The notes under the pieces were generated by a model. It made no database searches, was not told the DNA's origin, and saw only the letters and a list, made by a program, of their open reading frames with translations. Shown one piece after another: positions 21,631 to 39,565 of a DNA stretch of 39,565 nucleotides. Origin of the DNA: Pyrolobus sp. (lineage in GTDB: Archaea; Thermoproteota; Thermoprotei_A; Sulfolobales; Pyrodictiaceae). How positions within the stretch are numbered: the stretch's first letter is position 1; each line of letters opens with the position of its first letter. Location: positions 1 to 39,565 of the forward strand of contig WAOO01000113.1 in the NCBI GenBank assembly GCA_015521195.1, in the 5' to 3' direction. The translations under genes were made by a program, and so were the position numbers.

Positions 21631-21686
21631 GCGTTGATGAGGTTCGCTAGGGCTGAGTTGTGATGTTGTATGGCGGAGGCTGAGCA
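21631..21686 (+). ncRNA. Candidate box C/D guide sRNA between tRNA-Ser and gatD
   Basis: The order of elements matches an archaeal double-guide RNA: C box tTGATGA (21634-21640), 12-base guide ggttcgctaggg, D' box CTGA (21653-21656), 3-base spacer, C' box GTGATGT (21660-21666), 13-base guide tgtatggcggagg, D box CTGA (21680-21683). A short terminal stem GC/GC brackets it with one bulged base before box C, as a kink-turn needs. The first C-box base is T instead of a purine. No own promoter is visible, so release from the tRNA-Ser precursor or the gatD leader is inferred. I cannot name the targets. Confidence 0.65.
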
Positions 21687-25079: not shown

Positions 25080-25137
25080 AGGCGATGATGTATACTTCCG
25101 GCGCTGAGGCGTGATGTAAAGGCATTTGTCTGAGCCT
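25080..25137 (+). ncRNA. Candidate box C/D guide sRNA downstream of gatE
   Basis: All elements are in order: terminal stem AGGC (25080-25083) with GCCT (25134-25137), one bulged base, C box ATGATGT (25085-25091), 12-base guide atacttccggcg, D' box CTGA (25104-25107), 3-base spacer, C' box GTGATGT (25111-25117), 12-base guide aaaggcatttgt, D box CTGA (25130-25133), then a T-run. It fills the convergent gap between gatE and the disulfide oxidoreductase gene. By the N+5 rule the predicted target sites are G in CGCCGGAAGUAU and the middle A in ACAAAUGCC; I cannot place them in an RNA. Confidence 0.75.
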
Positions 25138-36594: not shown

Positions 36595-36604
36595 CTTTTA
36601 AGCG
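36595..36604 (-). promoter_or_regulatory. Promoter of the second alba gene
   Basis: On the minus strand gcttaaaagg lies about 35-40 bases before the ATG at 36561. The stop codon TAA of the upstream gene (36600-36598) is inside this box, as with the other alba gene. Confidence 0.5.
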
Positions 36605-37143
36605 CTCGGGCTGCCCCGCGTGAGCCTCAACAGCTTCTCATAAACCTCCGATATACAGCCCACGGCTGGCTTGACTAGGGACTCCGGGTCTACCCCAGGG
36701 TATACCCATGTGCAGAGGCTTGCGGGCAGCTGTGTAACCAGGTTCTCGAGGGCCTCCCTCCTACACAGCTTCGCCAGAAACCTGCCGCGCCTCAGCTCCG
36801 CGAACACGGCGTACGCGTCGTAAACCCCGCATCTGGCGAGTATCAGCTTAGCCGATGGAGTTTCGTCTGCCTGGTCGAAGGTCCTCCGGAGTATACTGAG
36901 ACGCGCATCTGGCGCTCTACCCGAGGCCTTATACTCGAGCACCGTTGTCGCCGCATACCTGTCCCACAGTCCCATTGCATCCCCCAGCTTTGAGAGAGGC
37001 ACCCGGTGTAACACCCTCCTAGTCTCCTCCTCGTAGTCAACCACCTCTATGCCGCTCTTCCTCAACATGGCTATGAACGACGTGAGGGAAGCCTCGGGTT
37101 TCAGGGTAGACGTTGCAAGTATATACCAGTATAGTCTCGCCAA
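36598..37143 (-). CDS. Unrecognised 181-residue protein
   Basis: I do not recognise it. It looks soluble and alpha/beta: a strand start ARLYWYILATSTL, a helix LTSFIAMLRKSGIEVVDYEE, several Cys residues (ARCGVY, AKLCRRE, SLCTWVYPG, VGCISE) and a helical end. Four or five of the Cys are spaced along the C-terminal half without a clear zinc pattern. The start is TTG at 37143. The bases just before it, gctgaggg, act as ribosome binding site and at the same time form the D box and terminal stem of a guide RNA candidate. Confidence 0.65.
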   Translation of the reverse strand: MARLYWYILATSTLKPEASLTSFIAMLRKSGIEVVDYEEETRRVLHRVPLSKLGDAMGLWDRYAATTVLEYKASGRAPDARLSILRRTFDQADETPSAKLILARCGVYDAYAVFAELRRGRFLAKLCRREALENLVTQLPASLCTWVYPGVDPESLVKPAVGCISEVYEKLLRLTRGSPSA

Positions 37144-37145
37144 TA

Positions 37146-37207
37146 CCCTCAGCCGGGGATAACGTCATCACATAGGGAAATCAGCTTACCTCGATTACAT
37201 CACGGGG
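37146..37207 (-). ncRNA. Candidate box C/D guide sRNA aimed at the 23S peptidyl-transferase centre
   Basis: Minus-strand elements in order: stem CCC (37207-37205), bulged C, C box GTGATGT (37203-37197), 12-base guide aatcgaggtaag, D' box CTGA (37184-37181), 9-base spacer, C' box GTGATGA (37171-37165), 12-base guide cgttatccccgg, D box CTGA (37152-37149), stem GGG (37148-37146). The D guide pairs over 11 bases with the universally conserved CCGGGGAUAAC of 23S rRNA (E. coli 2442-2452); the N+5 rule gives G2446. The D' guide pairs over 8 bases with ACCUCGAU (2497-2504); N+5 gives C2498. rRNA numbers are from memory. Confidence 0.85.
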
Positions 37208-37266
37208 GCTCGGGAACACGAGCCCTCCTCACCCTTCAGCTCTCCGTGGCGGTCGTCACAGCCCCC
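37204..37266 (-). ncRNA. Candidate variant box C/D sRNA in tandem
   Basis: Just upstream on the minus strand: stem GGGGGC (37266-37261), bulged T, C box GTGACGA, 13-base guide ccgccacggagag, D' box CTGA (37239-37236), 3-base spacer, C' box GTGAGGA, 12-base guide gggctcgtgttc, D box CCGA (37213-37210), stem GCCCCC (37209-37204). The 6-bp stem and single bulge fit a kink-turn, and the U-U pair of the C/D core would be C-C. A TATA box puts the RNA start near 37268, at the stem. Against it, the second guide can itself fold with the following bases into a 7-bp hairpin. Confidence 0.5.
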
Positions 37267-37286
37267 CGGGCTGTCAGCGTAAGAGC

Positions 37287-37303: not shown

Positions 37304-39565
37304 CTAGTAGAAGCTCCTGAGCCTCTGGATAACTGCTATAGCGTTCAATACTATGTAGGGTAGTGTGCGCCTCGAGACATAGTAGTAGCGTGGTATGCCC
37401 GTCTTATCGTCGTCTGTCAACGGGATTACCTTCAACTCGTATATCTCCTCGAATGGCACGCGGCGTAGGAAGTCCTCCCGTTTCTCGATAACATCCCTCG
37501 CGGATATCAGGACGTGGGCGAAGTCCTCCGAGTTCATAGCCCTAACCATCAGCACGAAGTGTTCGTCGAGCCTCAGCGGCCGGAAGCTCTCGCGGAACTC
37601 CTCGGAGGAGGCTATCTCCTCTACATCCTCCTCGAGGGCCCACCTCCAGTCGCCGGTGTCAACGTCTATGAACTGGAAGACGCGGTAGGGTGAGCCGGGC
37701 TTCCTCATCTCTCGCAGCTTAGAGGTTATCAGCTTCTCCGGCAGCCCGGTCATAGACGCTAACTCCTCGACTGTGAATGCGAGCCCCTTCATAGCCTCGG
37801 CTATCTCCTTCTCGATGTCAACCTTCCAGAGCTTCTCCTCCGGCATCGATACCAGCATGCGTGCCAGTGGCGTTGCTCCGCCGACGGCGTGTTTGACTAC
37901 ACGGCCCTCCTGCAGGAGCTTCAGCACCCTCCTAGCCTCCTCGAGGTCGAAGAACTCTTCAAGCGCTTGTCTCGCCGCCTCCCGTTTGACTAGGTTATCG
38001 TCGCCGCTCATCTTGGATATCTGTCCGAAGGCTAGGCGTATGTCGCGCAGCATGTTGAGATAGTATGGCGTCTTCATTATGGCCTCGAGGGCTAGTTCGT
38101 CTAGCTCAGAGGGGTCTACCCCTAGTAGGACCTCCAAGGGGTTGAACTCGGGGCTCGAGCGTATAGCGACGCCATAATAGCTCGTCTTTATCGCGGATGT
38201 GTAGCTGCGGGCGGCGTACAGCGCCACATACCCCAGGGTCCTGGCGGCGGCCTCGCCCATGAGCCCGAGTAGTACGATATCGTCGCCGACCTGCTCCAAG
38301 ACGAGCCTATCGCGGCTCGGCAGGGGCTTCCTATACCTCCTATACTCGTCTATGAACCTCTCGACAGTCTTCCTCGCATCATCGGTCAGCCTCACCCATG
38401 TCAACCCGTCCACGCCCCTCTCGTACACCTCGTGGAGCACGTGGTCTAGCGCCTCTAGCGCCGTCTTGGATGCTTCGGGGCCGAGCCCCCTCCACATCGG
38501 TATTATCGCTGGCGCCCCCTGAGCCTCCCTGACGATTATCTTTGCGGAAAGCTCGTCAATATCGACTATAGTCCACGTCTTCCCGCCGAGCTTTATCGAG
38601 GCGCCGGGGTACAGCTTGTACACGTAGCTTGCGTCAAGCTCTCCCACGACGCGCCCGTCCTCAGTTCTAACTGTGTAGGTCGACCTCTCGCCTATCGTCG
38701 AGAAGAACGAGGAGAAGCTCCTAACCCACCATGCTCTCTTATCGCCGCCGCGGTCGAACCTCCATATCTTGTAGAATAGCTGTCCGACCTTCACCCGCCT
38801 GTCATCGACCCTCTGTAGTACGCCGTTGCGGAGGAGCACGTCCACCACCTCGTCGAACTCCTCTCGCGTCATGCTACGGTAGTGGTAGGTGGACTTGAAC
38901 ACCTCGAACGCCTCGTCCAGGTCTACGGGGTTCTGTAGCGCCATGCCCACCAGCGACTTCACTAGCACGTCGAGGGGCTTCTCGGGTATCCTAGGCTCCT
39001 CTATGTTGCCGTTGGCGGCCGCCCAGGCGAGGGCGGCAGAGTAGAGAACCTCCATAGCGTCGTTCGCGATTATGACGCCGTTCAAGACCTCTATGTCGTA
39101 CCGGTGGCCGCTCCTGCCGAGCCTCTGCACCAGGCTGAAGACTGTGCTCGGCGGACGGAACAGGATTACCCTCTTAACGTCGCCGACGTCGATGCCGAGC
39201 TCAAGGGTCTTGGTGCATATTACCGCCTTTACCCGGTTCTCTCGCAGCGCCTTCTCCGCCAGCGCCCTCTCCTCTGGCGAGAGGCTGGCATGGTGAACCA
39301 TTATGTCGCGGTGGCCTAGCTTAGCAAGCTCCTCGTGGAGCCTCTCCGCCGCGTACTTAGAGTTGACGAATATCAGGGTCACCGGCTCTATATACTTGGC
39401 TATCTTCTCGGCAGCCTTCCTCCAGTAGCCATCCTTATCCGGCACAACGTCTATCGTAATGTCTATCTTCTTCCTCCTTGCGACCGATACGACGCTGCCC
39501 GGCCTCCGCGACCCGTATGTGTAGACTCGGAGCACCTTCTCCGGGCTCCCGACGGTGGCCGATAT
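37304..39565 (-). CDS. Lhr-like large DEAD/DEAH helicase, N-terminus cut by window edge
   Basis: The frame is open to the window end, so the first part (with Walker A and B) is missing. The visible 750 or so residues start within helicase motif III (ISATVGSPEKVLR). The second RecA domain follows with VTLIFVNSKYAAERLHEEL, VMVHHASLSPEERALAEK-like sequence (IMVHHASLSPEERA), VKAVICTKTLELGIDVGDV and QRLGRSGHR (motif VI). The long C-terminal part with winged-helix and beta-rich domains is typical of Lhr-family helicases, used in DNA repair. No termination signal is apparent apart from the A/T tract after the stop. Confidence 0.88.
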   Translation of the reverse strand: MSATVGSPEKVLRVYTYGSRRPGSVVSVARRKKIDITIDVVPDKDGYWRKAAEKIAKYIEPVTLIFVNSKYAAERLHEELAKLGHRDIMVHHASLSPEERALAEKALRENRVKAVICTKTLELGIDVGDVKRVILFRPPSTVFSLVQRLGRSGHRYDIEVLNGVIIANDAMEVLYSAALAWAAANGNIEEPRIPEKPLDVLVKSLVGMALQNPVDLDEAFEVFKSTYHYRSMTREEFDEVVDVLLRNGVLQRVDDRRVKVGQLFYKIWRFDRGGDKRAWWVRSFSSFFSTIGERSTYTVRTEDGRVVGELDASYVYKLYPGASIKLGGKTWTIVDIDELSAKIIVREAQGAPAIIPMWRGLGPEASKTALEALDHVLHEVYERGVDGLTWVRLTDDARKTVERFIDEYRRYRKPLPSRDRLVLEQVGDDIVLLGLMGEAAARTLGYVALYAARSYTSAIKTSYYGVAIRSSPEFNPLEVLLGVDPSELDELALEAIMKTPYYLNMLRDIRLAFGQISKMSGDDNLVKREAARQALEEFFDLEEARRVLKLLQEGRVVKHAVGGATPLARMLVSMPEEKLWKVDIEKEIAEAMKGLAFTVEELASMTGLPEKLITSKLREMRKPGSPYRVFQFIDVDTGDWRWALEEDVEEIASSEEFRESFRPLRLDEHFVLMVRAMNSEDFAHVLISARDVIEKREDFLRRVPFEEIYELKVIPLTDDDKTGIPRYYYVSRRTLPYIVLNAIAVIQRLRSFY

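Follow-up and report, generated by a model that had tools for sequence, protein, structure and literature searches.

A predicted double-guide box C/D sRNA in Pyrolobus with target sites at G2446 and C2498 of 23S rRNA

The window, i.e., the whole 39,565-nt stretch of a Pyrolobus sp. contig (WAOO01000113.1) that was analysed, contains a small RNA element on the minus strand (37146..37207), located within a 160-nt gap between two minus-strand genes. The upstream gene (37304..39535, minus strand) encodes a large-helicase-related (Lhr-type) helicase; the downstream gene is a conserved 181-aa ORF (36598..37143, minus strand) with a TTG start 5 nt past box D of the element. This ORF matches no Pfam or NCBIfam family, is followed by an Alba-like gene, and is found between the sRNA and the Alba-like gene in 12 genomes representing four genera of the window's own family (here, the home family). 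The gap also includes an upstream C/D-like sRNA (37204..37267, minus strand), GGGGGGCU-GUGACGA-CCGCCACGGAGAG-CUGA-AGG-GUGAGGA-GGGCUCGUGUUC-CCGA-GCCCCC, which has CCGA as its box D. The 3′ stem strand of this upstream sRNA would share nucleotides with the 5′ stem strand of the downstream element, a compact arrangement. The upstream sRNA is conserved in G012, a complete genome from the same genus, where the end of its D′ guide differs; its D guide forms 9 bp and one GU pair at local position A714 of the G012 23S rRNA, and its weaker D′ guide forms 8 bp, starting from the fifth base, at local position 734.

Read from 37207 to 37146 on the minus strand, the element presents the order stem, box C, D′ guide, box D′, linker, box C′, D guide, box D, stem, with the sequence 5′-CCC GUGAUGU AAUCGAGGUAAG CUGA UUUCCCUAU GUGAUGA CGUUAUCCCCGG CUGA GGG-3′. 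The four boxes, C (GUGAUGU, 37197..37203), D′ (CUGA, 37181..37184), C′ (GUGAUGA, 37165..37171), and D (CUGA, 37149..37152), are all present in this order when compared to the consensus sequences RUGAUGA and CUGA; only the last base of box C departs from consensus, and the same deviation is found in orthologs. The C-D′ and C′-D spacers, which represent the D′ guide AAUCGAGGUAAG (37185..37196) and the D guide CGUUAUCCCCGG (37153..37164), both have the canonical length of 12 nt and are separated by a D′-C′ linker, UUUCCCUAU (37172..37180), that has diverged between species. The C/D kink-turn is closed by a 3-bp terminal stem formed by CCC (37204..37206) and GGG (37146..37148). The initial annotation had placed a box C/D guide RNA at 37146-37207 and left its strand unstated; sequence and the G012 ortholog confirm these coordinates for the whole RNA, short terminal stem included, and assign it to the minus strand. 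No Rfam family reached its gathering cut-off (the best score over the element was 18 bits versus 60), and the element did not meet the cut-off of the named Rfam C/D families (sn1185, snoPyro_CD, sR14, etc.). A minimum-energy fold of 161 nt gave no useful information (z = -0.41), as is expected of a kink-turn RNA.

The assembly containing the window (G000) is a MAG with 78% completeness, and a search for its own 23S rRNA found none; pairing was therefore checked on G012, the nearest complete relative, with E. coli numbering taken from a 2905-nt 23S copy (one base over the standard 2904). The D guide forms 11 of 11 continuous pairs with the G012 23S segment CCGGGGAUAAC, which is identical in E. 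coli 23S rRNA and in all archaeal 23S rRNAs examined, and its fifth base falls on E. coli G2446; pairing length and site are the same as initially proposed. The D′ guide forms 9 continuous pairs with UACCUCGAU, with the fifth base on C2498. Here the initial annotation had the site right and the helix, given as 8 bp, one pair too short for the same-genus 23S rRNA; the weakness that it reported near the 3′ end of this match corresponds to guide positions 1 and 2, which adjoin box D′ and are unpaired on the G012 23S rRNA. Both D and D′ are thus preceded by rRNA complementarity (11 bp and 9 bp, respectively, on the same-genus 23S rRNA) that spans the fifth base, with N+5 inside the helix in each case, and the two sites lie 52 nt apart in the same 23S domain.

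To assess chance pairing, random 12-mers with the dinucleotide composition of the window were paired against rRNA. Of the trials, 0.3% gave at least 11 pairs anywhere in rRNA, 7.8% gave 9 pairs at some rRNA position, and 0.4% gave at least 9 pairs no more than 100 nt from G2446; the last value, together with the 52-nt spacing, bears out the earlier suggestion that two guides about 50 nt apart are unlikely to arise by chance. Scanning for the motif returned six C/D arrangements for the real window versus 0.33 per shuffled window, and the only strict double guide in the real window was the element at 37207..37146, versus none in 60 Markov-shuffled windows. The two unpaired positions of the D′ helix, as well as the coupling of the G2446 guide to unrelated D′ guides in other genera, would be consistent with a single-guide RNA that has a real D guide and a fortuitous D′ match. 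However, the D′ match has the 0.4% chance level given above, the D′ guide is identical in G012 and on target in four genera from two families, and its presence tracks C2499 (see below), all of which make a single-guide RNA very unlikely.

The G012 ortholog is syntenic, with the same gene order; its D′ guide and the 11-nt pairing core of its D guide are identical to those in the window, the D guide differing only at the unpaired 12th base, and the linker has diverged. The double guide was also found in seven genomes from three genera of a second family, where flanking guide bases shift and N+5 is still on C2498. The terminal stem is CC/GG in the window and GG/CC in these second-family orthologs, a compensatory change from C-G to G-C. 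Retention of the boxes and of the pairing parts of both guides, alongside a diverged linker and a compensatory stem, together with the link between the C2498 guide and 23S position 2499 (see below), upholds the class, both target sites, and the double-guide reading that had been put forward from the window alone. Of 229 genomes in the taxonomic class, 40 have the D guide with its boxes (i.e., the G2446 guide), among them 15 of the 20 home-family genomes, while a reversed-pattern control gave 0; the G2446 guide is also present in records from Methanothermococcus, Nanoarchaeota, Hodarchaeota, Marsarchaeota, and Woesearchaeota. In home-family genera other than that of the window, the neighbours of the locus are kept and the D′ guide is different. 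A search with the D-guide pattern gave 18 stretches, approximately 10 of which were set aside as apparent bacterial or coding chance matches. A chance match in intergenic DNA deserves almost no credence given this conservation, the frequency of the guide versus its reversed control, the shuffled windows, and the random-guide trials. The element is very likely a genuine guide RNA, as judged from its sequence; it is a new instance of an archaeal class that is already textbook knowledge. We are confident in reading 37207..37146 as a box C/D sRNA with two guides and predicted methylation at G2446 and C2498; its host would be an archaeon of hyperthermophilic type, probably from an order-level group of Thermoproteota.

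The D guide also has a potential partner in the small subunit, and a real C/D sRNA could use this guide on 16S ACGGGGAUAACC instead of, or in addition to, 23S G2446. Guide positions 2-11 form a perfect 10-bp match with G012 16S CGGGGAUAAC at approximately position 130, and this 16S site is identical in two other home-family genera. However, the pairing with 23S rRNA is one base longer, the partner D′ guide targets the same 23S domain, and position 2446 is a methylation site in eukaryotes. In addition, Marsarchaeota and Woesearchaeota carry the same D guide, yet their 16S site is not complementary, while CCGGGGAUAAC is unchanged in E. coli and in all archaeal 23S rRNAs examined; persistence of the guide without a 16S match points to 23S rRNA as the common target. 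We thus consider a 16S-directed D guide unlikely; the complementarity indicates that 16S rRNA may be a second target.

Location of the element immediately upstream of an ORF raises another alternative, namely a role in cis as an L7Ae-bound kink-turn leader that controls translation of 36598..37143. Box D adjoins the TTG start of this ORF, and the order helicase-sRNA-ORF-Alba is kept in all genera where the ORF was found. On the other hand, leader length ranges from 6 to 58 nt, the double-guide RNA of the second family occurs without these neighbours (within the stretches examined), and selection acts on rRNA complementarity; a cis-acting leader is therefore highly improbable.

Among the 76 genomes of the taxonomic class with a readable site, position 2499, adjacent to the predicted D′ target, is A in 59 genomes, C in 16, and U in 1; in these archaea it is a variable site that lies within the peptidyl transferase region. 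The D′ guide in the window carries the G required by C2499; G012 has C2499, and two other home-family genera have A2499. Among genomes that carry the G2446 sRNA and whose 23S rRNA could be read, the C2498 guide was found in four of eight C2499 genomes (G012, G045, G046, and G080) and in none of 10 A2499 genomes (one-sided Fisher test, 70/3060 = 0.023, a value that ignores shared ancestry and rests on few lineages). The 23S rRNA of G017 (L031) was set aside as it looks foreign to the home family; it is strongly unlike the 23S rRNA of that family, has a bacterial-like helix 89, and may represent a contaminating contig.

In archaeal C/D RNPs, the two kink-turns are the platform on which L7Ae, Nop5, and fibrillarin come together, and the resulting complex methylates the ribose of the nucleotide that faces the fifth base of a guide. 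For the RNA described here, L7Ae would bind the C/D and C′/D′ kink-turns, as known for this class, Nop5 and fibrillarin would then assemble on the RNA, the D and D′ guides would pair with 23S positions 2442-2452 and 2496-2504, respectively, and fibrillarin would methylate the ribose opposite the fifth base of each guide; we infer ribose methylation at G2446 and C2498. Fibrillarin was detected above the cut-off in 16 of 20 home-family genomes, including G012, and was not found in a search of the window's own MAG; the absence of fibrillarin and 23S rRNA from this MAG is attributed to its 78% completeness. The two target segments coincide with the strands of helix 89 or lie immediately beyond them; we take this helix to be E. 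coli 2454-2498. In addition to methylation, the RNP may therefore hold the base of helix 89 during folding and act as a chaperone; with target segments that flank this helix, a folding role like the one that Dennis et al. proposed (2015, PMC4644070) is plausible.

The text of Dennis et al. (PMC4644070) describes C/D double-guide RNAs with targets at most 100 nt apart and with hot spots near the peptidyl transferase centre, and proposes a chaperone role for dual pairing. The element resembles the RNAs presented there in having two kink-turn box pairs, two guides, and rRNA targets less than 100 nt apart; the seven species in that study apparently exclude the home family, and its text, supplementary site tables aside, does not name G2446 or C2498. 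E. coli G2446 corresponds to Gm2815 in yeast 25S rRNA, which is guided by snR38 and approximately 95-99% methylated (PMC5199042, PMC8817022); this correspondence uses a yeast-E. coli offset of 369, derived from Um2921 = Um2552 and applied to Gm2815. Human, plant, and Dictyostelium rRNAs also carry the methylation equivalent to Gm2815 (PMC5199042, PMC8817022, PMC11542601), and snR38, human snR38A-C, and AtsnoR38Y, while eukaryotic, guide modification of the same nucleotide as the D guide described here (PMC8817022, PMC5199042). In E. coli, Cm2498 is set by RlmM (PMC11542601), a stand-alone protein, whereas the same predicted product, 2′-O-methyl C2498, would be RNA-guided here. Our literature search found no archaeal paper naming both sites (supplementary tables aside) and no archaeal report of C2498 methylation; a search on the guide letters gave unrelated primer papers only. 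G2446 thus appears to be common to archaeal and eukaryotic RNA guides, and C2498 is reached by a protein in bacteria. There is about an even chance that, in archaea that keep C2499, RNA-guided methylation of C2498 is convergent with RlmM and the guide was lost or replaced at A2499, with the two-guide RNA bracketing helix 89 and helping to fold the catalytic centre. For the peptidyl transferase centre, the element yields a prediction that is both precise and testable, and the occurrence of the C2498 guide only with C2499 provides a natural series for guide-target co-evolution.

Two other C/D-type double guides were observed in the window, both on the plus strand. One (21634-21683) is located 14 nt after tRNA-Ser(GGA); its D′ guide forms 10 bp at local position 2596 of the G012 23S rRNA (approximately E. 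coli 2389), and its D guide forms 9 bp and one GU pair at local position 2519. The other (25085-25133) has a GGC/GCC-like terminal stem, with a D′ guide forming 9 bp and one GU pair at G012 23S local position 2113 and a D guide forming 10 bp at local position 2145.
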